Shown: in pieces, positions 19,426 through 55,804 of the stretch | How the letters are laid out: each line of letters begins with the position of its first letter | How positions within the stretch are numbered: the stretch's first letter is position 1 | NCBI GenBank assembly: GCA_016401345.1 | Contig: JAEACG010000005.1 | Coordinates: forward strand, 186,001-250,000 | Direction of reading: 5' to 3' | DNA from: Fictibacillus nanhaiensis | GTDB taxonomy: Bacteria > Bacillota > Bacilli > Bacillales > Fictibacillaceae | DNA length: 64,000 nucleotides | The notes under the pieces: model-generated | Seen by the model: the letters and a program-made list of their open reading frames with translations, nothing else | Database searches by the model: none | Told to the model about the DNA's origin: nothing | Position numbers and translations under genes: made by a program

Positions 19426-21171
19426 TTATTGAGCCGGTACACCAATCGCATCGTATGCTGCAATTACAGCTTTTGTTTCGGCAGATGGAGCTCCATTACG
19501 GTCTGGATAAAGATCTCGAGCGGATTGAATCGCTGCAGCACGCATCTCTTTGAATCCTGATGACGGTACAAGATAGTTCGTTAACGCACGGTAAAAGATT
19601 TTCTCTGTTTTCGAACGTGTGATACCCGTGACTTTAACTCCGTGATGCTCTCCTCCTTCAGAGATGAGATAAGCTGCTTTATTGTTGATGGAGCTGTTAA
19701 TATGAACCCCACCCTTATCCAGCTCACCTAAGTAACGGTCTTCATAGTGATCAGGATATGAATTATCCTTCAATCCATAAGCTGAAGATAGCTTTCTGGA
19801 CTTTGGATTACTCATGGAACGAAGTCCGCCATCACCAGGTACGTTTGGTGTGTAAATGTCTTCACCCATCTCCCATTCAGATGGACTTGTTAATCCGTGT
19901 GAATGCATCTCAGACAACGCACCGAAGATATCAGCTAGTGATTCATTAATCGCACCTGATTCTCCTTGATAGGTTAGGTTTGCTGTTTTCGAGATTACAC
20001 CATGTGTCATCTCATGACCTGCAACATCCATCGCACCTGCTAATGAACTGAACAGAATACCGTCACCATCTCCATATAGCATCTGCTTTCCGTTCCATGC
20101 TGCATTGTTCCATTTAGACCCAATGTGGACCGTGCTTATGATCGGCATTCCGTTTCCATCGATACTGTTACGTTTGTGAATATTTTGGTAATACGTATTT
20201 ACTTTGATAGAGTTCGTATGAGCTGAAACCGCTGCTGGATCCGCAAAGAACGACGTACCTGTCTCTACTTCGAAACCTGAGAACCCCAAAAGTCCGGATA
20301 GTAGGATGAAAGGTGTTTCACCCATGCGGTTCGCTTTGTACGTATGAACTGGGACGATGTTCGGATTCGTCGTTGTTCCTCCTCCTATTGCCGCACCATG
20401 AAGATAGCTTTTCCCGGATGTACTATCTTTTACAGCGATAAAGTTTTGAACTTTACCGAATAAATCTAGTCCTCTTCCTGTTATCGGTGTTACTGCTGGA
20501 GCATCTGCTTCATGTACCGCGTTAAACTGATCAACGATCTCACCCGTTGTTGCATCTATAAAATAATGATAAAACCCAGGTGCAGGAACAGAAGTCGAAA
20601 CTTTAACTAAATACGTTAAGTAGTTTCTGCCTTCATGCGGATAGATTGTTAATTCTGTTTCTACTCCGTCATACTGCTTAACTTCTCCAATCTCAGCAAC
20701 TACTTGCTCTTTCGCTGTTATTTCTGCGTCTTCCTTCGATATGGATGGATCTGTAGAAATGATGGATCGACCTAGTTTCTGAGTCACCTTCCCAAATGAT
20801 GCATACACATTGTTGTTTGCATCCAGCGCAACGGTTTGTCCACTGCCGTAGATCGGGATTCCGTTGTATTGCTCAATAGTCCGCACGTGGTATGTATTTG
20901 TGCTACTATCTGCAAACTCTTTTACGATCTTAAACTGCTCTCCTATTGTAGATGCTGATTTCGCACCAACCTCGGAAACGACCTGTGATTGAAGATACGC
21001 TTTAACGATTTCAGCTTTACTCAACCCTTCAGGAGCTTGGAATAAAACAGTTGTAGGATTCGCGTGTGCATTAGATCCAGGTAATGAAAATCCTCCAAGT
21101 GTAACGGACAATGCTAGAACTGCTGGGATTACCACTTTTTTGTTCAATCGTTTTTGTCTTTTCTTTTTCAA
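19426..21171 (-). CDS. neutral metalloprotease, thermolysin (M4) family
   Basis: A 581-residue secreted zinc protease. A TTG start is chosen because GAGGTG lies 6 nt upstream; from there the protein opens with a basic stretch and a hydrophobic signal ending near PGSNAHA. An FTP/PepSY propeptide follows (to about residue 220), then the catalytic domain with HEMTH (His386, Glu387, His390) and the third ligand Glu410 in INESLAD. The C-terminal helical domain ends AAYDAIGVPAQ. It degrades extracellular protein. The downstream NprR-like gene is a likely regulator. Confidence 0.93.
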   Translation of the reverse strand: MKKKRQKRLNKKVVIPAVLALSVTLGGFSLPGSNAHANPTTVLFQAPEGLSKAEIVKAYLQSQVVSEVGAKSASTIGEQFKIVKEFADSSTNTYHVRTIEQYNGIPIYGSGQTVALDANNNVYASFGKVTQKLGRSIISTDPSISKEDAEITAKEQVVAEIGEVKQYDGVETELTIYPHEGRNYLTYLVKVSTSVPAPGFYHYFIDATTGEIVDQFNAVHEADAPAVTPITGRGLDLFGKVQNFIAVKDSTSGKSYLHGAAIGGGTTTNPNIVPVHTYKANRMGETPFILLSGLLGFSGFEVETGTSFFADPAAVSAHTNSIKVNTYYQNIHKRNSIDGNGMPIISTVHIGSKWNNAAWNGKQMLYGDGDGILFSSLAGAMDVAGHEMTHGVISKTANLTYQGESGAINESLADIFGALSEMHSHGLTSPSEWEMGEDIYTPNVPGDGGLRSMSNPKSRKLSSAYGLKDNSYPDHYEDRYLGELDKGGVHINSSINNKAAYLISEGGEHHGVKVTGITRSKTEKIFYRALTNYLVPSSGFKEMRAAAIQSARDLYPDRNGAPSAETKAVIAAYDAIGVPAQ

Positions 21172-21243
21172 CCCATTCACCTCTTCATCAAATTGTGCTT
21201 CCGGAATAATTCCAATTATTAAGAACATTACAAAAGTGGTCAA

Positions 21244-21397: not shown

Positions 21398-22060
21398 ATG
21401 AAAGGCAAGCTTCATAAAGGAACTGTTCTATTGGGGTTGTGCTCTCTATCTTTTTATTGTGGTGCTCAAATTACCGGTCAAACTGAAGCTGCCTTTTCAA
21501 GCCGAGCTCAAATAAAACCGGTTGAACTTTCAGCTGCAATTGTCTTTCCAGACACAGTGGGAGATCTTAATGAAAAAGCTATGATCATTTATTTGGACAT
21601 ACTTTCTCTATACAATACCGTTCCGAACGCCGCTGAGGATGCAAGTTTACAGGAGCTAAAAAAAACGATCGAGAAGATTACAAGAATAGAACAAGCACTT
21701 CACTTACTTCTCAATGATTTTCAAGACATACATAATGAGCTCTTGAACTATGAGAAACAGGTAAGGAATCTGGATTCAAAGACATACCAGTTTGTCTATG
21801 AAGGGTGTAATGAGGCAAACGAATTGAGCAAAAAAATAAAAGAAACAGTGAACTTACAATCTATTAAACAATTACACCATTCTATTGAAGTTCGTATAAA
21901 CAAGTTAGAAGATGCTGAGAAGAAGATTGAAGGTCCCATTAAATCAGCAAAGATGAAGAATGCTACTGATCATATAGAACAAAACGAATTTGCTGATGAT
22001 TCTATTCAAAGTGAAGGAGAAACAAAACTTGACGAAAAGACTGTTGAAATTCACGACTAA
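21398..22060 (+). CDS. DUF4047 secreted protein
   Basis: A 220-residue secreted protein resembling DUF4047. The signal peptide region (residues 1-32) ends in QTEAAFSSRAQI, the AF-S pattern typical of substrates of SipW-type peptidases. The body is helical and probably coiled coil (about 60-200), with a charged acidic tail. It opens a three-gene operon with a SipW-type peptidase and a CalY/TasA protein, taking the position TapA has in B. subtilis, so an accessory role in fibre assembly or anchoring is plausible. GGAGG is 8 nt before the ATG. Confidence 0.82.
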   Translation: MKGKLHKGTVLLGLCSLSFYCGAQITGQTEAAFSSRAQIKPVELSAAIVFPDTVGDLNEKAMIIYLDILSLYNTVPNAAEDASLQELKKTIEKITRIEQALHLLLNDFQDIHNELLNYEKQVRNLDSKTYQFVYEGCNEANELSKKIKETVNLQSIKQLHHSIEVRINKLEDAEKKIEGPIKSAKMKNATDHIEQNEFADDSIQSEGETKLDEKTVEIHD

Positions 22061-22574
22061 ACTAGCAAGTACCTCTTTTATTGTATTGCTCTGCTTGCTT
22101 GCTTTTATCATCCTATCGTCCCGTGTTTCAGGATCAGAACCTTCCGTTTTTGGCTATCAGATTAAAGCGGTATTATCTGGATCGATGGAGCCTATCTTTC
22201 AAACAGGGTCTATCATCTCTATTAAACAGACAGACGATAACACTACCTTTAAAAAAGGCGACATTATCACTTTTCAAATGGAAGATAAGCTGATTACTCA
22301 TAGAATTATTGATGTTGAAAATAAAAACGGACAAATTTCCTATCACACAAAGGGCGATAACAATGACGGACCTGATATGTGGTCAGTTCCTTCAAATGAT
22401 GTGGTTGGAAGCTACACAGGATTTACGATTCCTTATGCCGGATATGCATTAAATGTAACTCAATCTAAGGAAGCATCTGCACTTTTGTTATTTATTCCAG
22501 GGTTCTTATTATTTAGTTCAGCTGTCTTTTCTATAGTGAAAGCAGCTAGAAAACTAGATGTCGAAAAAGCATAA
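22029..22574 (+). CDS. sipW: SipW-type signal peptidase I
   Basis: A 181-residue membrane peptidase of the ER type. The catalytic Ser52 is in VLSGSMEP and His91 replaces the usual Lys in LITHRII. Membrane segments lie near 15-35 and 150-172. A TTG start is chosen because AAGGAG lies 9 nt upstream; the gene then overlaps the DUF4047 frame by 32 bp. It should process both neighbours, which carry the matching signal type. Confidence 0.9.
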   Translation: MTKRLLKFTTKLASTSFIVLLCLLAFIILSSRVSGSEPSVFGYQIKAVLSGSMEPIFQTGSIISIKQTDDNTTFKKGDIITFQMEDKLITHRIIDVENKNGQISYHTKGDNNDGPDMWSVPSNDVVGSYTGFTIPYAGYALNVTQSKEASALLLFIPGFLLFSSAVFSIVKAARKLDVEKA

Positions 22575-22656
22575 ACTTGGGTTAGATCTCTATGTATTTA
22601 AATCATACATACGAGTTTAATAAATTTATATTACATATCTATGGAGGTTGAGAAGA

Positions 22657-23271
22657 ATGGGGTTTACGAAGACAATTAGCAAAGGCGTTATGACAGCTGC
22701 ACTAGGTTTATCTTTAATGGGAGGAGGAACGTTCGCTTACTTTAGTGACACGTTTGAAACGAAGAACACTTTCGCTGCAGGTACGTTAGATCTTTCCATC
22801 AATCCAAACGCTGTGGTTAACATTGACAACATCAAACCAGGCGATGAAGTGTACCGTGAATTTACGTTTGAGAATAAGGGTTCTCTAGACATCTATCAAG
22901 TACTACTAGATACGAAATATACAGTTGAAGATGCAAAATCAGATAATACAGATGATCTAGCAAACCACATTAAGATTACAATCATGTACAACACGAGCAG
23001 TGCAACTGTTCCTGTTGTTGAGACAACATTGGCTCAACTTAAAGAACAACAACCTGATCTAACAGCAATTGATGAATTCGTTGGTACTGTTCAGCGTCCT
23101 GATGGTATTCCTCCAGGTGAGAAAGAAAAAATGTTCGTATTGTTCCAGTTCGTAGATAATGGCGAAGATCAAAACCAGTTCCAAGGAGACAAGCTTAAAG
23201 TGGATTGGACGTTCAACGCGAAACAAGCCCCAGGTGCTTATAACGACGATACAGATCCAGAGAATAACTAA
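22657..23271 (+). CDS. calY: CalY/TasA family matrix protein (camelysin-like)
   Basis: A 204-residue secreted protein of the TasA/camelysin family. The signal ends LMGGGTFAYFSDT, the SipW-type cleavage region. The mature part is beta-rich (TFAAGTLDLSINP, KPGDEVYREFTFENKGS) and ends in an acidic tail. TasA/CalY proteins form the amyloid-like fibres of the biofilm matrix. I start at the ATG giving MGFTKT since GGAGG lies 9 nt upstream; a TTG three codons earlier is too close to it. Whether the ortholog is TasA or CalY cannot be settled here. Confidence 0.9.
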   Translation: MGFTKTISKGVMTAALGLSLMGGGTFAYFSDTFETKNTFAAGTLDLSINPNAVVNIDNIKPGDEVYREFTFENKGSLDIYQVLLDTKYTVEDAKSDNTDDLANHIKITIMYNTSSATVPVVETTLAQLKEQQPDLTAIDEFVGTVQRPDGIPPGEKEKMFVLFQFVDNGEDQNQFQGDKLKVDWTFNAKQAPGAYNDDTDPENN

Positions 23272-44892: not shown

Positions 44893-46560
44893 TTAATTAA
44901 TACCAACCGCATCAAAGCCTGCGTTAACTGCTGTTACTTCAGTACTTCCTGAACCATAAAGATCTGTTGCAGCTTGTACGATGGCTTGACGAGCTTCACT
45001 AAAGTTAGAATTCGATGTTAAGTAGACCGATAGTGCACGGTAATAAATTTTACCTAATTTTTCTCTACCAAGCTCCTCACCAATCAGATATGCAGCATGA
45101 TTCGTAATGGAAGAGTTCACATGTACACCACCATTATCTACATTCAGCGGCATGTTATAATATTCATCCATATGTGCTGGATAGACCCCACTGCCATATG
45201 CCGCCCTTTGCGGGTTGCTGACAACAACACTGTTCGGGTCGCTTAAGCTACGCAATCTCGTTACGCCATCTGCTTTTGCAGCCGGTGCCATGATGTCCTC
45301 ACCCATTTCCCAATCACTATCATCAACGAGTGCACCAAAAACGTCAGCGAATGATTCATTAAGTGCTCCCGATTGGTTACGGTAAGCTAGATTTGCGGTA
45401 TGCGTAATCACACCATGTGTCATTTCATGTGCCGCAACATCAAGACCTGCAGATAATGGAATGAAAAATTCTCCGTCACCATCTCCGTAGGCCATATAAC
45501 GTCCATTCCAGAATGCATTATTGTAATCGACTCCCATGTGTACATAGGAATTGATCGCCATACCTTCTCCATCCAAAGAATTCCGGCCATGCTCATTCAA
45601 ATAATACTCATAGACCTTTTCAGAATTATAGTGTGCATCAACAGCAGCTCGGTCATAGTCACTCGTAAAGGAAGCTGAATTCCCCGTATAAATCTTATCA
45701 TTACTAGAGTCCCAATCACTCGTAGCATCATACGTAAAGATTCCTTCAAGATTTTCATGAGAATAATCTGCTAAAGCAAACCTTGTACCAGATTTCGGCT
45801 CTTTCACTCGTGTAATATGTAATTTTCTATGTTCACCATGAACGCCAAGGCCAGAGCCTGTTTGCGTTTTATGTTCATCAGCATGCATGAGCCCATTATA
45901 CTGATCGATGACTTCTCCTGTCTTAGCATCTACAAATACAAACCAGTTTCCAGGTTCTTCACCCATAAAGTTAACGTTTATTTTATAAGCGGTGTGATTC
46001 TTATTTTCAAATGGATAGATAACGAGCTCAGATGTTGGTTCATACGTTAGCTCTTGAGGAGCTTTAACCGATGATAAAGCAGATTGTAGCGCAGCTTGTT
46101 TACTGATGGCAGCTTGTGTATCTACGAGTTGATCGACAATCGTTTGATTCGTTCTTCCATTCACAGAAACGATCTCATGATTTTTATTAAAATGGGCAAC
46201 GACTTCGGAACCTTCTACAGGAATCCCATTGACTGCTTGTGAAAACCGTACGTGAGTCATTCCAAGTTCATCTTTATTTACACTTTTTACTTTTAAATTT
46301 TTTTCCGGACTTTTAATACCTGTTTTATCTTGATTTTTCTTTAAATAATTTAGTGCGTTAGAAGAACTGCTTGAGGAAAACTTCTCTGCATTTCTTTCCT
46401 TCACAAAAAAAGGTACACTCGCTTTCTCATTCCATTCTTTAGCCACTTGAACACGGTTGACTTCACTTGAATGAACAGGTTGTGCAAGTACATTAACCGG
46501 AATGGAACTTAATAGAAATGCAGATGACAAAATGACGGAACCTATAAGCTTTTTCTTCAC
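44893..46560 (-). CDS. neutral metalloprotease (M4, bacillolysin type)
   Basis: A 555-residue secreted zinc protease. The signal ends IPVNVLAQ, followed by an FTP/PepSY propeptide to about residue 225. The catalytic domain has AAHEMTH (His378, Glu379, His382) and Glu402 in LNESFAD, and the thermolysin C-terminal domain ends FDAVGIN. A GTG start is supported by AGGAGGT 8 nt upstream. It is shorter than and distinct from the protease at 19.4 kb, with no regulator nearby. A TATAAT lies 33-38 bp before the start. Confidence 0.94.
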   Translation of the reverse strand: MKKKLIGSVILSSAFLLSSIPVNVLAQPVHSSEVNRVQVAKEWNEKASVPFFVKERNAEKFSSSSSSNALNYLKKNQDKTGIKSPEKNLKVKSVNKDELGMTHVRFSQAVNGIPVEGSEVVAHFNKNHEIVSVNGRTNQTIVDQLVDTQAAISKQAALQSALSSVKAPQELTYEPTSELVIYPFENKNHTAYKINVNFMGEEPGNWFVFVDAKTGEVIDQYNGLMHADEHKTQTGSGLGVHGEHRKLHITRVKEPKSGTRFALADYSHENLEGIFTYDATSDWDSSNDKIYTGNSASFTSDYDRAAVDAHYNSEKVYEYYLNEHGRNSLDGEGMAINSYVHMGVDYNNAFWNGRYMAYGDGDGEFFIPLSAGLDVAAHEMTHGVITHTANLAYRNQSGALNESFADVFGALVDDSDWEMGEDIMAPAAKADGVTRLRSLSDPNSVVVSNPQRAAYGSGVYPAHMDEYYNMPLNVDNGGVHVNSSITNHAAYLIGEELGREKLGKIYYRALSVYLTSNSNFSEARQAIVQAATDLYGSGSTEVTAVNAGFDAVGIN

Positions 46561-47640: not shown

Positions 47641-48243
47641 TTACTTCATATAATTCTCAATTAATTCAAAGCATCTCTTCTCTGTAAGATTGTTTATTGT
47701 TCTTACATATTCGTATTGCTCCAATGTACCGCCTTCATATTTAAGAGATTCCTTTTTAGCTATATTTTCCCTATTAATTAACCATTCACGTTGTTCTTTT
47801 CTTAATTGGTTCATCTCTTCTTTATTGAGTTGCTTCTCTAGTACTCCATAAATTTCGTTTAACAAGTCATCTAATAGTTCGTATGCATCGCCTTCCACTT
47901 TCTTCAAAGCGAATGTTGTATCATCTAGTGGATTCTTTCTCATCTCTGCTACTTTATTCTTCATCTCTTCCCATTTTTGAAGATATTTTTCTTTTGTACT
48001 TTCCTTAATTTCAGAAGCATCTTTCTGAGACATATCTACCTTTTCATTAGTATGCTCACTTCCTGAAGCTTTTTCAATATCATCTTTATTTGAAATATCT
48101 GCACCTGATTTTTGAGTTGATTTTTCATTTTTTGATTCGTTATCCGTTGATCCATTTGAAGGATCGATTGAATTTCCACAAGCGGATACTATAACGAGCA
48201 GAACGGTTACAACAATGATTAACAACTTCCGATTGTTTTTCAT
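47641..48243 (-). CDS. lipoprotein with LprI-like (DUF1311) domain
   Basis: A 200-residue lipoprotein (VLLVIVSAC, Cys22). A Ser/Asn/Lys-rich linker follows (25-80). The C-terminal 110 residues have the LprI-like pattern (LDDLLNEIYGVLEKQLNKEE, LRKEQREWLINRENIAKKES). LprI relatives inhibit lysozyme; that function is inferred at most. GGGAGG precedes the ATG. Single-gene unit. Confidence 0.82.
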   Translation of the reverse strand: MKNNRKLLIIVVTVLLVIVSACGNSIDPSNGSTDNESKNEKSTQKSGADISNKDDIEKASGSEHTNEKVDMSQKDASEIKESTKEKYLQKWEEMKNKVAEMRKNPLDDTTFALKKVEGDAYELLDDLLNEIYGVLEKQLNKEEMNQLRKEQREWLINRENIAKKESLKYEGGTLEQYEYVRTINNLTEKRCFELIENYMK

Positions 48244-48332
48244 GAACGTACCTCCCTTTTGTATTTGATCTAGCAGTTGTTAGCTTCACCTTAACATAAA
48301 TTACCTCTTGATGAATTTAATGGATTCAAATC

Positions 48333-48370
48333 AAAAAAACAGCATGTACCCATAAGGTATCATACTGTTT
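48333..48370 (-). terminator. intrinsic terminator after dihydrouridine synthase
   Basis: A long imperfect stem (48337-48350 with 48356-48370) is followed on the minus strand by a run of T. It lies 33 bp after the stop. Confidence 0.8.
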
Positions 48371-48402
48371 TTCAATCTATTTCTTTATTCTTTTAGAAGT
48401 TA

Positions 48403-49359
48403 TTAATGATTGATTTGATCTAGCAACGCTCTCACTTCATCCGTTGATTTTGTGTTCATCAACTGATTGCGTAATTCTGCCGCTCCTGGGAATCCTTTTA
48501 CATAGATTTTGAAAAAGCGGTGAAGTCCTGTGATAGAACGCGGCACTTCTTCCGCGTATTGATCTTGAAGATCAAGCTGCAGTCTTAACAGATCAAGATA
48601 TTCTTTGCTGCTGTGCTCTCTTGGCTCTTTTTCAAAAGCAAAAGGATTTTTAAAGATTCCTCGTCCGATCATAACACCATCAATTCCGTATTTTTCAGCA
48701 AGCTCTAGCCCTACTTGACGGTCCGGAATGTCTCCGTTAATCGTTAGTAACGTATCTGGTGCAATTCGGTCACGCAGCTTTTTAATCTCAGGAATAAGCT
48801 CCCAATGAGCATCTACAAGACTCATTTCCTCTCTTGTGCGCAAATGGATAGAAAGGTTTGCAATATCCTGCTCTAAAATATGCGTAAGCCACGCTTCCCA
48901 CTCATCAATTTCTTTAAACCCAAGTCGTGTTTTCACACTAACAGGCAGTCCGCCAGCTTTAGCCGCCTGAATTAATTCAGCCGCTACATCTGGACGTAGA
49001 ATAAGGCCACTTCCTTTTCCTCTTTGTGCGACATTCGGTACAGGGCAGCCCATGTTAATGTCGATTCCTTTAAAGCCCATCTCTTTCATGCCAATACTCA
49101 TTTTACGGAAATATTCAGGGTTATCTCCCCATATATGTGCCACCATCGGCTGTTCATCTTCTGTAAACGTCAAACGGCCGCGAACACTTTTTAATCCCTC
49201 TGGATGACAATAGCTATCTGAGTTTGTAAACTCCGTAAAAAACACATCCGGTCGCCCAGCCTTACTTACAACATGACGAAAAACAACATCTGTCACGTCC
49301 TCCATTGGAGCAAGTACAAAAAACGGACGCGGCAGATCACGCCAAAAATTATCTATCAT
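48403..49359 (-). CDS. dus: tRNA-dihydrouridine synthase
   Basis: A 318-residue FMN enzyme. [14 protein letters not shown] near the N terminus is the FMN-binding start of the barrel, Cys105 in NMGCPVPN the catalytic acid, and [18 protein letters not shown] the phosphate site. It reduces a uridine in tRNA to dihydrouridine. The C-terminal helical domain binds tRNA. GAGAGGA precedes the ATG. Which position is modified cannot be read. Confidence 0.92.
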
Positions 49360-49614
49360 TGATGCTCAAATCCTCTCACTATAATGCAACTTCAAAATCC
49401 CGGTAAAATAAATATTCTTTTACTCTTATATCATGATTGTTCACTCAATATCAATCACTGCACATTTATAATTTATGGAAATTTACAAATGTACAAAAAA
49501 GCCTCTCGATGATTATGATATCAATACCTTCTTTTTCGTCCCTGCCCTTCTCACCTGCAGGTCTGCACCTTTATTAACTTTTAAAGTTATTTAAATATTT
49601 CATGTTTAATTAAT

Positions 49615-50529
49615 TCAATCCTTTTTTAAATAGCCCATTCTCTTCAGTTCCTCGTATACGATCCAAGAGAACTTTTTTCTGCCCTCACTGTTTAAATGAT
49701 CGGGGTCGATAAAATATTCTTGCTTGTTTACGAATCTTGGATCACTCATATAATTTAACAATGGAACATCTAGATTTAGAGCTTCTAAATGCTGAAAAAC
49801 AAGTCTATTCATAACTTCTTTATTGAAATATTTTTGATAAGACTGATGAACGGGCTCCATGGTCAACACGACGTGGTAGCCTTTATCGCTGCAATAATCT
49901 ACAATTTCTTCTAACTGCTTTACATTTGGTTCAATGTTATTGTTTTCTATTGCTTCCTGGTACTGTTCTTCTATTTTCTCATATTTTCTTTCTGAATAAT
50001 CTTTACCGTTATTTGACCAAGGTTGATGAGAATTCCATCTTAAGTCTTTTAGTTTACCCGTAATTGCAGAGCTAAGACTCCCAGTATTTGTCCCAGGTAA
50101 ATTCAAGTAAGTGTAATAATCAATAATATTATACGGTTCAATATCACTACGATCTAAAACTCTATAATAGTTCCCAATGTTCTTAGCCTCAGAATTGGCG
50201 AAAGTCATCTGAGAGATGGAAACGAGAACGACACCACCAGGTTTAAGATGCTCACCATACTCTTTCAACAATTTAGAGTCGTATTGAATGGTCTGAGAAG
50301 GAAGCGCTAAGTCCAGATGGGACAAACCAGTGGGCTTAAAATAATAACCATACATCGAATGAGATGCACCTAGATTGATGAGATCAACAGGATGTGGTTG
50401 TTTCTTAAATGCCAGTATGTCATGATCAATATTGTAATCATATGAATCCTTAACGAATTGATTGATCGGCATAAAAAGTAGGATAACAACACCGATGATA
50501 ATTGTTAACTTGATGAATAAACGTAACAT
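49615..50529 (-). CDS. SGNH-type membrane protein, DltD/AlgX-like partner of MBOAT
   Basis: A 304-residue protein with one N-terminal membrane helix (about 4-22) and an extracytoplasmic SGNH-like domain. The block LGASHSMYG (nucleophile Ser56) and the C-terminal FIDPDHLNSEGRKKFS (Asp and His of a catalytic pair) are the family hallmarks. I start at MLRLFIK as AAAGGA lies 6 nt upstream. As last gene of the ACP-adenylase-MBOAT operon, it is the probable last step in acyl transfer to an extracellular acceptor, as DltD is in the Dlt system. Confidence 0.82.
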   Translation of the reverse strand: MLRLFIKLTIIIGVVILLFMPINQFVKDSYDYNIDHDILAFKKQPHPVDLINLGASHSMYGYYFKPTGLSHLDLALPSQTIQYDSKLLKEYGEHLKPGGVVLVSISQMTFANSEAKNIGNYYRVLDRSDIEPYNIIDYYTYLNLPGTNTGSLSSAITGKLKDLRWNSHQPWSNNGKDYSERKYEKIEEQYQEAIENNNIEPNVKQLEEIVDYCSDKGYHVVLTMEPVHQSYQKYFNKEVMNRLVFQHLEALNLDVPLLNYMSDPRFVNKQEYFIDPDHLNSEGRKKFSWIVYEELKRMGYLKKD

Positions 50530-50598
50530 AGCAAATCCTTTCAACACCGTGTATCTTTTATCAAATCTTCACCTAAACTACACATGGAAGTTGTTGTA

Positions 50599-52050
50599 TC
50601 AAAATCCACCATAAACAAATCCATTCTCTGTAACACCTAATATAAGAACTGAAAAAATAAGAAAAATATAAAATGCCAATCTAGTAAATGTGGAGCGCTT
50701 TGATAGGAATTCCCATGCTGAACCATTGTTTCTTTCTATATATTGAAACAGTTGTAGAATAATAAAGAAAAAAATAAAAAGTAACAGATCAAATAACGGA
50801 AAAATTTCAAAAGCTTTAACCATTCCCACCGGGCTCCAAGAGCTGATGCTCAAGAAAAGTTTTGCGTGATCAAATGCTTGTGCTACGGTATCCGATCGAA
50901 AAAAAACTCTAGAAAAGCAGACTAGAAGAAAGGTTATTGCAATCTTCAACCACCTATGAAGCACTGGAGTTCTATCCAATCGAATAAACGAAGCCATACT
51001 TTCACGATAAGATTTCGTTGCATCTCCAAACACGCGATAAAACCCATGAATGAGACCCCATAATACAAAAGTCCAAGCTGCTCCGTGCCAGATGCCGCTT
51101 ACTAAAAAAGTAATCACAATGGCAAAATAGATTTCACTTCTCTTTTTTTTCCTCTTACCTAACGGGAAGAAAATATAGTCCCTAAGCCATGTGGAGAGCG
51201 TTATATGCCATCTACTCCAAAAATCTGAAATCGAAACAGCAAAGTGCGGCTGCCTAAAGTTTTCAGTTAAATTGATTCCCAACATTCTTGCGCTACCAAT
51301 GGCAATGTCACTGCATGCTGAAAAATCAGCGTATAACTGTATCGAGAATAAGATAGTAGCTAGTACGATTTCAGAACCAGACGGGTTAGGACTATCGTAA
51401 ACACTAGCAACGATTGGAGCTAGTCGATCTGCAATCAATGTCTTTTTAAAAAAACCCCATGCGATTCTCTTCATTCCATATACTAAATTTTCATAGTTTA
51501 AACGCTGTTCGACTTTCAATTGTGGAATTAATTTTTTGGCACGTTCAATTGGCCCTGCAACCAGTTGTGGAAAAAATGCAAAATAGACCGAAAAATAACC
51601 ATAATGTCTTTCAGCTTTTTGCTTTCCATAGAAAATATCCACAAGATAACTTACAGCCTGAAATGTATAAAATGAAATGGCTAATGGCAGAACAATCTCT
51701 TGGTAGGGTATCGCATAATTCCAACCCATGGATGTCGCCAACGACCGAAGCGATTCATTCACAAAATTAAAATATTTAAACCAACCAAGAAAAAACAACA
51801 ATACAGAAATACCAACGATCATGGCTTTTTTCTTCTGTTTTTTGGTCTCCTGTTTTTCAATGAAAATTCCAGTGAAATAAGTAAAAGCTGTGCTAATTAA
51901 GAGTAATAGTATAAATTGAATACTTAAACTAGCGTAAAACACATAACTTGCAACCAATAAAAGAACCCATCTCAATCGATGGGGGATTATATAATTCAAC
52001 AAAACGGTTATTGCGAGAAATAGAAGAAACTCAATTGATATAAAAGTCAT
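50599..52050 (-). CDS. MBOAT acyltransferase (DltB/AlgI type)
   Basis: A 483-residue polytopic membrane protein with about 11 hydrophobic segments. The catalytic His322 lies in VSGIWHGAAWTF and His282 in SRWHITLSTWLRDYIFFPLG. Family length and ending agree with AlgI/DltB. It moves an acyl group from a carrier across the membrane. The carrier is presumably the ACP encoded upstream; the SGNH protein follows 69 bp downstream. AGGTGATTG precedes the ATG. Confidence 0.92.
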   Translation of the reverse strand: MTFISIEFLLFLAITVLLNYIIPHRLRWVLLLVASYVFYASLSIQFILLLLISTAFTYFTGIFIEKQETKKQKKKAMIVGISVLLFFLGWFKYFNFVNESLRSLATSMGWNYAIPYQEIVLPLAISFYTFQAVSYLVDIFYGKQKAERHYGYFSVYFAFFPQLVAGPIERAKKLIPQLKVEQRLNYENLVYGMKRIAWGFFKKTLIADRLAPIVASVYDSPNPSGSEIVLATILFSIQLYADFSACSDIAIGSARMLGINLTENFRQPHFAVSISDFWSRWHITLSTWLRDYIFFPLGKRKKKRSEIYFAIVITFLVSGIWHGAAWTFVLWGLIHGFYRVFGDATKSYRESMASFIRLDRTPVLHRWLKIAITFLLVCFSRVFFRSDTVAQAFDHAKLFLSISSWSPVGMVKAFEIFPLFDLLLFIFFFIILQLFQYIERNNGSAWEFLSKRSTFTRLAFYIFLIFSVLILGVTENGFVYGGF

Positions 52051-52174
52051 TCAATCACCTGATAAAAAATTACCTTATATTTTTTTCTGATAAAACGAAC
52101 TAGAAATTATGCATAAATGGCATTGCAACACGTTGAACAGATGGTGGTCGGTCATAGAGATCACCAACTATAAA

Positions 52175-53569
52175 TTAGCCAAGTTTAGGGAGGTTTGAAT
52201 AGAGGATTTTTCCAAAGTGATTCCGTGGGATTTCCTCAATTCTCATAATCTTAAAGCCCTTCAAGTTTAATTTTTCCTTGACTATTTTTTTTATCTGAAC
52301 ATAATCATCTCTTAATGTGTAGATATACATTTGGTCATCACTTCCAGCACAGATACAATCGTGGCCATGCTCATGTAAAAACAATTCTACATCATCAAGA
52401 CTGATGCGGTTTCCATACACTTTTATCATTCTTTTAATGCGTCCTGATATGAAGAAATACCCATCCTCATCAAAGTAAGCCATATCTCCTGTACGCAAAA
52501 CACCTTTATTCTCATCTTTTTTAGAAAGATCGAATAACGACTCAGCATACCCTAAGGAAACATTAGGCCCTTTGTATATCAATTCACCTGTCAAATGAGG
52601 TGCTGTAATTTTGTTTCCCTTGTCATCTTGAATGAATAGCTCTCCACCTGGAATAGCAATACCGATACTCCCTGCTTTTTCAAGATTTTTCTCATAGGGT
52701 AGATAGGTCATCCGGGCTGTCGCCTCTGTTTGACCGTACATGGTAAAAAACTGAATCCCTTTCTGATTACACACATTAGCAAATTTGCGAGAAAGCGTTT
52801 CGTTCAATTTGCCACCTGCTTGAGTTAGTTTTTTTAAACTTGGCAGACTAAGCTCTTCAAACTTCATCCTGTCAAGCATCTCATACACAAAAGGAACTCC
52901 ACCAAAAGTTGTGACTTGCTGTTCCTTACATAAATTCCAAAAATCCTTACTCATTAAAGAAGCCCCCGTTACAACGACTGTGGCTCCACATACGAAATGG
53001 CTGTTAATAATAGAAAGCCCGTAGGAGTAATTCATTGGTAGTGTAGTGATCGGTTTTTCGTTTTCATGGATATCAAGGTACTTTGCTATTGATACAGCGT
53101 TTTCAAAAATATTTTCATAGCTTAAACGAACAAATTTGGGGCTCCCCGTACTTCCAGAGGTTGTTAAGAGTAGAGCAAGATGTTCATGAAGATTATGTTG
53201 AAAATGGGTAGGACATTTATATAATGTGTAATCTCCATATACAAATGAAGAATCCATTGTCTTTGAGAGATCTTGATTATTACTACTTGCCCAGATGTAA
53301 GCAGGCTTATAAAGATGAACCAGTCTTCGTAACCGATCTATATGGATGGATGCATCCAAAAGCACGGGGACAATGCCACCTCTAATAAAGCCCACGTAAC
53401 CAAATAAAGACTCTTTATTATTTGAGCACAAACAAAAAACGAGCGTTCTTTCACCCACATTACCGCAGATGGCATCCGATAATTCTACCATTTCTGAGTA
53501 TGAATATTCTCGGTCTGCATATACAGCTGTGCGGTTCCCAAACTGCTCCATTTTTTTGAAGTTATTCAT
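52175..53569 (-). CDS. AMP-binding adenylating enzyme (DltA-like)
   Basis: A 464-residue ANL-superfamily enzyme. The P-loop LLLTTSGSTGSPK, FFTMYGQTEATARM, LRTGDMAYFDEDG and GRIKRMIKVYGNRIS give the full core; the C-terminal Lys is in NHFGKILYSN. It should activate a carboxylate with ATP and load it on the adjacent carrier protein. D-Ala specificity (as DltA) is possible, but the chain is short and I cannot name the acid. The start overlaps the ACP stop by 8 bp. Confidence 0.9.
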   Translation of the reverse strand: MNNFKKMEQFGNRTAVYADREYSYSEMVELSDAICGNVGERTLVFCLCSNNKESLFGYVGFIRGGIVPVLLDASIHIDRLRRLVHLYKPAYIWASSNNQDLSKTMDSSFVYGDYTLYKCPTHFQHNLHEHLALLLTTSGSTGSPKFVRLSYENIFENAVSIAKYLDIHENEKPITTLPMNYSYGLSIINSHFVCGATVVVTGASLMSKDFWNLCKEQQVTTFGGVPFVYEMLDRMKFEELSLPSLKKLTQAGGKLNETLSRKFANVCNQKGIQFFTMYGQTEATARMTYLPYEKNLEKAGSIGIAIPGGELFIQDDKGNKITAPHLTGELIYKGPNVSLGYAESLFDLSKKDENKGVLRTGDMAYFDEDGYFFISGRIKRMIKVYGNRISLDDVELFLHEHGHDCICAGSDDQMYIYTLRDDYVQIKKIVKEKLNLKGFKIMRIEEIPRNHFGKILYSNLPKLG

Positions 53570-53813
53570 TAATAATGTTCACTCCCGAACGTTCCAATAG
53601 CTCAATTCCAGACTGATAAGAATTGAATTCCGTCATCCATTCTGAATCTAATGAGACATCAAATGCATCCTCAATCTCACAAATGAGCGCCATATGTGCG
53701 ATTGAATCCCATTCTGCTGATTCTGCTAATACTAAATTCTCAACTACTTCATCTTCCTCTAGTTCCAACACATTAATAAAGGCATTTCTATATTTTTCGA
53801 TGTTCCTCATCAT
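53562..53813 (-). CDS. acyl carrier protein (DltC-like)
   Basis: An 83-residue acidic four-helix carrier. Ser37 in AEWDSIAHMALI is the phosphopantetheine site. It has the single-domain length and acid bias of ACP/DltC. It is the first gene of the operon; AAAGGGTG lies directly upstream of two adjacent ATGs (53813 or 53810). It should carry the acid activated by the next gene product and hand it to the MBOAT protein. Confidence 0.92.
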   Translation of the reverse strand: MMRNIEKYRNAFINVLELEEDEVVENLVLAESAEWDSIAHMALICEIEDAFDVSLDSEWMTEFNSYQSGIELLERSGVNIINE

Positions 53814-53988
53814 TTACACCCTTTCATTTGAAGACCAAACAAGTTCTATATACCTAATCAATCTCCAGACACTTCGGAGAATAAGATTTTTCTGTCAAAG
53901 TTACTACAAACTACGACAAACTACAGGATCGTAAGTAATTATTAATAAGAACTATACAACATGTACAAACTATTATTGCGTTTCTTAT

Positions 53989-54003
53989 TGATAATAATTA
54001 TCA
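53989..54003 (-). promoter_or_regulatory. Fur box (7-1-7)
   Basis: TGATAATAATTATCA is a perfect 7-1-7 repeat that fully matches the B. subtilis Fur consensus TGATAATNATTATCA. It lies just downstream of the predicted start point of the promoter at 54016-54044, in a position suited to block transcription toward the ACP operon. Confidence 0.82.
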
Positions 54004-54015
54004 TTCCCAAGCATG

Positions 54016-54044
54016 ATTCTAGCATATCGACTTTTGAAAAACAA
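54016..54044 (-). promoter_or_regulatory. predicted promoter of the ACP-MBOAT operon
   Basis: On the minus strand, -35 TTGTTT (54039-54044) and -10 TAGAAT (54016-54021) are 17 bp apart, with an extended TG before the -10. Transcription would begin near 54009 and reach the ACP start after about 196 nt of leader. Confidence 0.6.
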
Positions 54045-54149
54045 TAACACTTGCAAACTGTTAAAATTAGGAATGCAATATCTACTTCAGCCCTAACTGT
54101 GACACACATTTCGTGAGCAGTCTGCAAAGTCATCTTCACAGTCAAAATA

Positions 54150-54183
54150 AAAAAAGAAGTGAGCCCTCTTGAAGGCTCACTTC
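54150..54183 (-). terminator. intrinsic terminator, distal to rlmCD
   Basis: A perfect 10-bp stem (54156-54165 with 54174-54183) is followed on the minus strand by a seven-T run. It ends the rlmCD transcript and shields the ACP operon. Confidence 0.88.
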
Positions 54184-54213
54184 CTGTAATTATCAATACT
54201 CATTTTCATTCAT

Positions 54214-54341
54214 TTACAATCTTGTCACATCTTGCCCACACTGCTGATACGTTCCCTTCAAAACAATGCCAAAGTCATTGTCTTTATCTCTACGGCATCC
54301 TTACAATTCGAACAGTAAGTATAAAAGGAATATATAGCCAT
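54214..54341 (-). pseudogene. possible frameshifted small zinc-ribbon gene
   Basis: After rlmCD the minus strand encodes MAIYSFYTYCSNCKD and continues to 54258. One base shift near ACTTTGGC gives a further frame reading GTYQQCGQDVTRL, ending at a TAA at 54214. Together they look like a short CxxC zinc-ribbon protein broken by one indel. No ribosome site is evident, so it may be a decayed gene or chance. Confidence 0.3.
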
Positions 54342-54354
54342 TTTTATTTTATAA

Positions 54355-55731
54355 TTAGTTAAGCTCAAGCAATGCAACAGCTTCAACATGCGTCGTCTGA
54401 GGAAACATATCGACCGGCTGGACTTTCTGCGTTTTAAATCCACCATCTTCAAGTACGCGTAAATCACGTGCTAGTGTGGCTGGGTTACAGCTCACATAGA
54501 CTACGCGCTTAGGCTTCATTTCGATGATAGTTTTTAATAACTCCTCGTCACAGCCTTTTCGTGGTGGATCCACGACGATCACATCTGGCGTGATGCCTTG
54601 TTTTTTCCACTCGGGAATCACATCTTCTGATTTACCAACAGCAAACTCAGCGTTATGAATGTTATTTAACTCCGCATTGCGGCGCGCGTCTTCAATCGCT
54701 TCTGGTACGATTTCTACACCGTACACTTTTTTTGCTTTTTGTGCGAGGAACAGGGAGATTGTCCCGATTCCGCAATACGCATCGATGACCGTTTCATCAC
54801 CATTCAGTTCCGCATATTGTAACGCTTGATCATAAAGCACTTTCGTCTGGTCTGGATTGATCTGATAAAACGAACGCGCTGAGATGGCAAACTTGATGTC
54901 GCCAATAAAATCATAAATATATTCAGCACCCCAAAGCACGCGTGTTTCTTCACCAAAAATCACGTTCGTACGTTTTGAGTTCACATTTTGAACGATTGAT
55001 TTAATCTCAGGTAGTGCTTTTCGGATATCTTCTACTATCTTCTTACGCTGCGGCAGGTCTTGACCGTTCGTTACGAGTACAATCATTAAATCACCTGTCG
55101 TTTTCCCGTATCGCGCAATGATATGACGAAGAATACCTTTATGTTTTTCTTCATTATAAGCACTGATATTGTACTGATTCACGATTTCTTTCACAGCTTG
55201 TACCGCGTCGTCGTTCGTATCCCCCGTGATGATACAGCTGTCCATCTCTACAATTTCATGGCTGCGCTTCTGGTAAAAACCTGTGATGATGCGGCCGTTG
55301 CGTTCACCAACTGGCACTTGCGCTTTATTACGATAACGCCAAGGTTCTTCTCCCATGCCAAGTGTTGAGAGAACTGGAACGTCTTCTAACTTTCCGATTC
55401 TCGCTAGAACGTCTTCTACTAACTTGCGTTTGTATTCCAACTGTCCTTCATAGGATAGATGCTGAAGCTGACACCCTCCACACCATTTATAGATCGGACA
55501 AGGTGGTTCAACACGTTCAGGGCTCTCTTCGATCAGCTCTTCTAAACGACCAAAACCGAATCCTTTTTTCACACCTACAACCTTGATCTTCGCACGCTCG
55601 CCAGGCAATGTATTCGGCACAAACAAAGTAAACCCATTTACACGAGCAACTCCTGCCCCCTCATGGGTTAAATCCACTATATCTACTTCATAACTTTCAT
55701 TTTTATGAACAGGCAAATCAGCCTTTGTCAT
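54355..55731 (-). CDS. rlmCD: 23S rRNA uracil-C5-methyltransferase (RlmCD, TrmA family)
   Basis: A 458-residue SAM methyltransferase. TRAM domain at 8-65 ([19 protein letters not shown]), an iron-sulphur motif [17 protein letters not shown] site [16 protein letters not shown], and the catalytic Cys in [13 protein letters not shown]. It resembles B. subtilis RlmCD (YefA), which modifies 23S rRNA. Two ATGs, 6 bp apart, follow AAAAGGGAC; I use the second (MTKADLP), and the first at 55737 is possible. Confidence 0.93.
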
Positions 55732-55804
55732 TGTCATCGTCCCTTTTTGTCTCTTATGCTTTTCTGATTGTAGCATAACTGTTAGTGGACACCAAATGCT
55801 TACA

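Follow-up and report, generated by a model that had tools for sequence, protein, structure and literature searches.

Four adjacent minus-strand genes in the 64,000-nucleotide stretch of Fictibacillus nanhaiensis DNA analysed here (contig JAEACG010000005.1; hereafter the window) encode an acyl carrier protein (ACP), an adenylate-forming acid:ACP ligase (the adenylase), a membrane-bound O-acyltransferase (MBOAT) and a membrane-anchored SGNH protein. This four-gene arrangement recurs far beyond chance and is a real, conserved unit, and a mismatch-free site for the iron regulator Fur lies upstream of it. We consider it probable that the cassette is a mobile, Fur-repressed system for transmembrane acylation, which would transfer a small non-amino acid to an envelope or secreted glycan under iron starvation. 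No earlier description of the cassette was found in searches of the open-licence PubMed Central (PMC) literature.

A conserved four-gene cassette and its predicted chemistry

All four open reading frames (ORFs) are open on the minus strand. The ACP gene (53562-53813; 83 amino acids, with the phosphopantetheine site Ser37 in EWDSIAHM, codon 53703-53705) overlaps the adenylase gene (52175-53569; 464 amino acids) by 8 bp; the MBOAT gene (50599-52050; 483 amino acids, with His322 and two further C-terminal helices) comes after a gap of 124 bp and, another 51 bp on, the gene for the SGNH protein (49615-50547; 310 amino acids, with Ser62, codon 50362-50364, and His284). Met7 of the SGNH protein does not vary in two alignments, one of 15 and one of 20 sequences, and its ATG at 50529 is the more probable start. 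NCBIfam and Pfam both back the first three gene labels, with Pfam scores of 21.2 bits for the PP-binding domain of the ACP (cut-off 20.8), 154 for the AMP-binding domain of the adenylase and 96 for the MBOAT, and residues D36 and S37 of the ACP are invariant in an alignment of 15. The SGNH protein has no Pfam match above cut-off. Its predicted fold matches SGNH hydrolases; DltD of E. faecalis (6o93) ranks third and PatB of N. gonorrhoeae ranks 41-42. A first-pass annotation of this DNA had described the four genes with their Ser37 carrier, His322 and anchored SGNH protein, had likened their division of labour to that of DltC, DltA, DltB and DltD, and had remarked on a gene order unlike dltABCD. 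The ORFs, the Pfam matches and the SGNH fold agree with the first of these claims, domains and fold uphold the second, and the order noted in the third, ACP-adenylase-MBOAT-SGNH, proved to be fixed in all 36 loci compared.

Those loci comprise 18 that were fetched by family and order searches and 21 from named genomes (39 rows), less four named duplicates (L087, L092, L094 and L095) and with the window added, so that the fixed order is found in at least 36 distinct Bacillales loci. Adenylase identity across them is 61-97%. A relative of the adenylase at an E value of 1e-60 or better is present in 8 of 34 genomes of the family, all within one genus of four, and one at 1e-40 in 29 of 397 genomes of the order, our own genome being counted both times; all 17 further genomes from these searches with an adenylase identity of at least 61% carry the four genes, arranged alike. 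The named-genome scan took the best 80 of 401 confirmed adenylase relatives, and what follows on named genomes holds among these listed matches. Every relative with an adenylase identity of at least 63% (21 of 21) has the four genes in order; the carriers belong to Fictibacillus, Solibacillus, Lysinibacillus, Planococcus, Planomicrobium, Exiguobacterium, Pseudoneobacillus and Bacillus, with one Bacillales metagenome-assembled genome (MAG). The other 59, at about 45-51% identity, served as non-cassette comparison loci, and an MBOAT lies near only four of them: downstream in L155, L159 and L160, and as a fragment about 6 kb upstream in L115.

The cassette is also, by all indications, an accessory module that is mobile and gained or lost whole. 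In the window it is flanked on the minus strand by a Dus gene (48403-49359) and a gene for an RlmD-like methyltransferase (54355-55776), the whole context spanning 48403-55776. These two flanking genes are adjacent in 8 of 10 cassette-less Fictibacillus genomes, with about 170-665 bp between aligned ends, and in these eight there is neither a match to the four proteins nor a Fur-like site between them; in the remaining two genomes the RlmD-like gene is not visible in the fetched stretch. One cassette sits on a Metabacillus plasmid, and among 10 neighbour proteins of chromosomal cassettes at six loci we found no shared function.

Which acid the cassette handles can be approached through the adenylase pocket. 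Asp197 and Cys268 are named as DltA pocket residues in passages of PMC8972799, and we took the aligned Asp of FSFD and Cys of FCGE to be these two, an assignment of our own. Both residues, the Asp taken to contact the amino group of D-alanine and the Cys associated with choice of enantiomer, are kept in eight of eight DltA proteins that pass the DltA cut-off. By contrast, the window adenylase has Ser182 (codon 53024-53026) at the position of the amino-binding Asp and Ala251 at that of the Cys, and the two positions are Ser/Thr and Ala in all 13 adenylases of the cassette family that were aligned (seven from cassettes, the window's included, and six others); Ser182 is invariant in 14 cassette adenylases. 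The active-site lysine K454 and the ATP motifs are retained. Because the D-alanine pocket residues are replaced, the adenylase most likely acts on a carboxylic acid that lacks an alpha-amino group, and on the same grounds we rejected an alpha-amino acid. By sequence, the adenylase is matched best among solved structures by an oxalate-CoA ligase and by luciferases; MenE and others are also in this group, and DltA comes about twentieth; a 2-oxoglutaryl-ACP ligase model scores 107 bits (cut-off 370). Its closest relatives outside the cassette, and those of the ACP (about 40-51% identity), lie in glycan modules in the loci read, and the pocket motifs LPM.Y[ST]YGLS and YGQ.EATARM occur in five of the six non-cassette relatives aligned, the sixth having LPL. 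RfbL, which acts with 2,4-dihydroxybutanoate according to passages of PMC12208996, hints at small hydroxy acids, but a substrate deduced in this way, through a putative kinship of RfbL with the cassette adenylase, was not adopted.

The route across the membrane is suggested by the end of the MBOAT, FVYGGF (F478-V-Y480-G-G-F483, 50602-50619 on the minus strand), which fits the FXYXXF acyl-shuttle motif described in passages of PMC12148441. The C terminus reads F[VI]YG[GR]F in 39 of 39 rows of relatives, and FXYXXF ends the protein in 36 of 36 distinct loci, the window's among them. In the structure model, helices 418-441 and 453-470 precede this tail, whose pLDDT (predicted local distance difference test) score is below 50, and the best fold match is DltB (6bug), which is also the nearest to the MBOAT among solved structures. 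With a dedicated carrier and an adenylase beside it, as for carrier charging in Dlt, the cassette MBOAT is predicted to be a carrier-fed enzyme with its own fused shuttle. The only other MBOAT found in the genome is AlgI-like, ends FIYFRF, adjoins an AlgX/DHHW protein and is 35% identical to that of the cassette.

Three of the comparison loci with an MBOAT deserve separate mention. A cluster in a Roseburia MAG (L155:5467-12950) holds a 490-amino-acid SGNH-like protein (by eye; no Pfam match), an adenylase of the cassette subfamily and an ACP, together with a DltA-like ligase in which the pocket Asp is present, a second ACP and an MBOAT ending FIYQQF; this is apparently another carrier-fed MBOAT with a fused shuttle. 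Two Clostridiales MAGs (L159:1454-5118 and L160:6845-10471) have an adenylase-ACP-MBOAT row in which the MBOAT ends FIYAAY, the last Phe of the shuttle motif being replaced by Tyr.

A probable Fur operator and neighbouring iron genes

Upstream of the ACP gene lies a Fur box, TGATAATTATTATCA (53989-54003, minus strand), a 7-1-7 palindrome without mismatch to the B. subtilis form of the consensus as used in passages of PMC5467902, and the predicted operator of the operon. It stands 12 bp downstream of promoter-like boxes that we recognized by eye: a -35-like TTGTTT (54039-54044) and, 17 nt further on, a -10-like TAGAAT (54016-54021) preceded by TGC, as in an extended -10 element, both on the minus strand. 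A consensus sigma-70 scan, which gave 12 sites against 19.2 in shuffles, omitted this promoter. The box is the sole Fur site with up to two mismatches in the window, where 0.82 would be expected by chance. The 4.28-Mb genome, which has three Fur-family genes, contains just one other perfect site. The upstream box is invariant in eight Fictibacillus loci, and the block of promoter and box is nearly invariant while the flanks diverge.

The site travels with the cassette. A Fur site with up to two mismatches lies upstream of 18 of 18 fetched cassettes within 400 bp and of 19 of 21 named cassettes within 450 bp, which makes 34 of 36 after removal of redundancy. Among the non-cassette adenylase relatives, a Fur-like site precedes 1 of 56 (three of the 59 were dropped for short upstream DNA). 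This distribution suggests that Fur controls the operon.

The motif is also, as far as gene labels can tell, informative in this genome and marks iron genes. Of seven other genomic sites with at most one mismatch, four head siderophore or iron-uptake genes. The other perfect box precedes genes for a diaminobutyrate transaminase and a decarboxylase, which two IucA/IucC genes follow at some distance on that strand, and three sites precede genes of FecCD, FecB and FbpA/FbpB type. The remaining three lie before a heavy-metal P-type ATPase gene, before a pair of genes, first AhpC-like and then Dps-like, and inside an ORF. Curated cut-offs are passed only by the diaminobutyrate transaminase, the P-type ATPase and the IucA/IucC genes; the transporter labels are less secure. 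We note that the one-mismatch site before the AhpC-like and Dps-like genes (L085:3036-4747) may belong to PerR or to Fur.

Genes for putative iron transporters lie near some of the cassettes themselves. In a scan of 35 distinct cassette loci (the window left out) and the 59 comparison loci, FbpA and FbpB genes were found within the fetched flank of four cassettes (L042, L088, L090 and L093) and of no comparison locus. They lie upstream of two cassettes and downstream of two, with FbpC in three of the four, the locus L090 ending before FbpC. Matches to FbpC only (about 28-38% identity; 10 further cassette rows and two comparison loci) were discarded as generic ABC ATPases. The telling context of the cassette is, on present predictions, the Fur operator and, in some relatives, iron transporters, rather than a wall-polymer gene.

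More distant adenylases, at about 38-40% identity for the actinobacterial ones, share one polypeptide with an ACP and, at the C terminus, a polytopic domain, which weakly matches AT3 (PF01757) at 30.5 and 22.5 bits, below the cut-off of 31, in two of three proteins tested and not in the third. Of 82 plasmid records matching the R. fascians fusion over most of its length we read 19, picked for taxonomic spread and not at random. A complete FbpABC-type transporter adjoins the fusion gene in nine of the 19 (L045, L192-L196 and L202-L204, on Rhodococcus, Mycolicibacterium and Pararhizobium plasmids), and its position varies: upstream in Mycolicibacterium, downstream in Rhodococcus and divergent in Pararhizobium. 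Actinobacterial fusions with FbpABC have Cys in place of Ser182. As above, FbpC-only matches (L199 and L201) were set aside as generic ABC ATPases. The adenylase-carrier pair, with two families of presumed transmembrane acyltransferase, thus appears to recur beside iron-uptake genes in a minority of the lineages read. In two Rhizobium plasmids (L200 and L206), the fusion is followed by genes annotated as AAA family ATPase, YcaO-like and TfuA-like.

Proposed mechanism and its rivals

We propose the following sequence of events. First, scarce iron would release Fur from the operator, allowing the operon to be transcribed. Second, the adenylase would activate a small carboxylic acid without an alpha-amino group and load it on the phosphopantetheine at Ser37 of the ACP, as its family and pocket suggest. 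Third, by analogy with DltB-DltX and PatA, the MBOAT could accept the acyl group of the carrier and place it on Tyr480, within the FXYXXF tail of the MBOAT itself. Next, the tail would hand the group over, outside the membrane, to Ser62 of the anchored SGNH protein, which could form an ester on a hydroxyl of an envelope or secreted glycan. Finally, the modification may help the cell either to acquire iron or to adjust to a lack of it, most probably in concert with FbpABC-type uptake. The predicted operator offers a direct experimental handle on what is acylated, through the presence or absence of iron.

Several observations weigh against this proposal. Fur control is read from sequence; L088 and L106 have only a three-mismatch site within 450 bp, although the cassette in L088 lies behind an FbpABC-type operon with a one-mismatch Fur site, and when the upstream window is narrowed to 350 bp, the count among named cassettes drops to 17 of 21. 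The FecCD and FecB matches fall below cut-off, and the 'ferric' label of the FbpA-type protein comes from record annotation; NCBIfam matched it, likewise below cut-off, to substrate-binding models of other kinds. Of the 35 cassettes scanned, 31 have no FbpABC genes nearby. Among the fusions, 10 of 19 loci lack FbpABC, and the link is seen in 8 of 8 Mycobacteriales, 1 of 9 Alphaproteobacteria, namely Pararhizobium, and 0 of 2 Micrococcales; the actinobacterial FbpA and FbpB, annotated as iron transporters, share no more than about 25-28% identity with those of Bacillus. Both structure models are of only moderate quality (pLDDT 71 for the SGNH protein and 67 for the MBOAT). The dyad Asp of the SGNH protein is not constant: at position 281, three residues before His284, six Exiguobacterium loci and Metabacillus have Asn and keep D283, and in others such as L092 the residue at 283 is Asn.

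A more specific and rather doubtful version of the proposal is a wall-tethered iron trap, in which, under iron starvation, a small chelating hydroxy-, keto- or dicarboxylic acid, activated by the adenylase and exported through MBOAT and SGNH protein onto an envelope polymer, would hold ferric iron at the surface and pass it to FbpABC-type transporters, with Actinomycetota performing the same chemistry through the AT3-like acyltransferase. The hints are the oxalate-CoA ligase match, the match to the 2-oxoglutaryl-ACP ligase model and the FbpABC-type genes beside both architectures. If this were true, Gram-positive bacteria would possess a covalent, surface-bound means of gathering iron beside diffusible siderophores.

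The main rival, unlikely in our estimate but to be taken seriously, is tailoring of a siderophore or metallophore: the acyl group would go to a secreted small iron chelator, for example the genome's own siderophore, and not to an envelope polymer. The Fur box before the operon fits this idea, as do the diaminobutyrate and IucA/IucC-type locus behind the other perfect box and the FbpABC-type neighbours of 4 of the 35 cassettes. FbpABC transporters, however, classically serve ferric iron rather than siderophores, and no siderophore synthesis gene was seen beside nine cassettes inspected by eye, no model search having been made. Moreover, the MBOAT-SGNH pairs treated in passages of PMC12148441 act on polymers.

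Still less likely, we believe, is a general envelope acylation of the Pat/Alg kind, serving protection, adhesion or biofilm formation and merely placed under iron control. An MBOAT with a fused shuttle and an SGNH partner is what passages of PMC12148441 describe for PatAB, the cassette MBOAT is 35% identical to the AlgI-like one of the genome, and the dlt operon of Clostridioides difficile, according to passages of PMC6311696, is induced in low iron. The recurrence of FbpABC-type genes beside the adenylase-carrier pair in Bacillota, Actinomycetota and one Pararhizobium points instead to iron acquisition.

Divergent but ordinary D-alanylation, in a genome that lacks the canonical operon, would explain the shared division of labour and the nearness of the MBOAT to DltB, whose model TIGR04091 it matches at 158 bits. 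That score is far below the cut-off of 375, and the DltA models give the adenylase 109 and 117 bits against cut-offs of 560 and 476. We looked for a canonical dlt operon elsewhere in the genome, through MBOAT, DltD and DltA, and found none: no DltA exceeds its cut-off, and the DltD family PF04914 has no match in the SGNH protein or anywhere in the genome. Among 28 related genomes, one cassette carrier (G006) has a partial PF04914 match above cut-off elsewhere. Canonical DltA is scarce in the order (8 of 120 genomes) and is present in 1 of the 21 named cassette genomes, a MAG, among the matches listed, which thus carries both. The first-pass annotation had suggested that the system may be a distinct one, and the missing pocket residues and the lack of a DltD bear this out. 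It had also reasoned that being the genome's only Dlt system, or having the pocket of a D-alanine DltA, would make the cassette an ordinary variant. The cassette is indeed the only Dlt-like set found, an argument that applies in form only, and the pocket has Ser182 and Ala251 instead of Asp and Cys. The remark that no dltX lies nearby stands as well: neither the ORF list nor a six-frame motif check revealed a DltX-like frame in the cassette gaps, and no other FXYXXF directly precedes a stop in the six frames of 49360-54400, the stretch to which this search was limited. The absence of DltX is not anomalous, as the MBOAT carries a fused shuttle motif of its own. We regard ordinary D-alanylation as very improbable, and the predicted system as something other than D-alanylation.

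Least credible is a coincidental Fur site and an operon not regulated by iron: the case for regulation is made from sequence, and 0.82 sites with up to two mismatches are expected per window, but this one has no mismatch, stands at the promoter position, is kept across genera amid diverging DNA and has counterparts at 34 of 36 cassettes against 1 of 56 other adenylase loci.

Elsewhere in the window, three genes (21398-23271) resemble what we take to be a TapA-SipW-TasA matrix-fibre cluster, and two secreted HExTH proteins (19426-21243 and 44893-46560) are presumably neutral-protease-like. No Rfam element reaches its gathering threshold in 48000-55000. The host is presumably a soil bacterium.

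Comparison with known acylation systems

The cassette shares with DltABCD-DltX an adenylase and a carrier that would feed an MBOAT, an SGNH protein that would complete the transfer and an MBOAT model nearest DltB. It departs from that system in its predicted pocket for a non-amino acid, in a shuttle fused to the MBOAT in place of the DltX microprotein, in an SGNH protein outside the DltD Pfam family, in the gene order and in the Fur box. Like PatA-PatB and AlgI-AlgJX, which O-acetylate peptidoglycan and alginate, it has an MBOAT with a C-terminal FXYXXF and a separate SGNH partner (passages of PMC12148441). In contrast to these systems, it is predicted to draw on a dedicated ACP, served by a ligase of its own, and not on acetyl-CoA as the donor; whereas an acyl-CoA donor and no dedicated carrier would characterize Pat and Alg, an apparent ACP and ligase belong to the cassette in 36 of 36 loci.

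In the loci read, the nearest non-cassette relatives of adenylase and ACP lie in modules for O-antigen, capsule or flagellin glycosylation, in which an ACP and an AMP-dependent synthetase may be joined by SDR, LuxE and LuxC proteins and the pocket motifs are shared. Passages of PMC7874193 and PMC4875605 describe such ACP and AMP-dependent synthetase modules, which we liken to these loci by make-up, not by sequence. Unlike the cassette, they are glycan-precursor clusters, with an MBOAT near 4 of 59 and a Fur-like site before 1 of 56 among the matches listed. The AT3-like fusions of Rhodococcus, Mycolicibacterium and Pararhizobium share the adenylase subfamily, the carrier, a transmembrane acyltransferase-like domain and iron-transporter neighbours, but are single fused proteins with the AT3-like domain in place of the MBOAT and SGNH pair.

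More broadly, the predicted cassette is a hybrid, with a Dlt-like carrier donor and a Pat/Alg-like fused shuttle. Such a combination of carrier-protein donor and shuttle fused to the MBOAT would constitute a third layout for bacterial transmembrane acylation, and would connect iron starvation with acylation of the envelope, other phyla providing a parallel.

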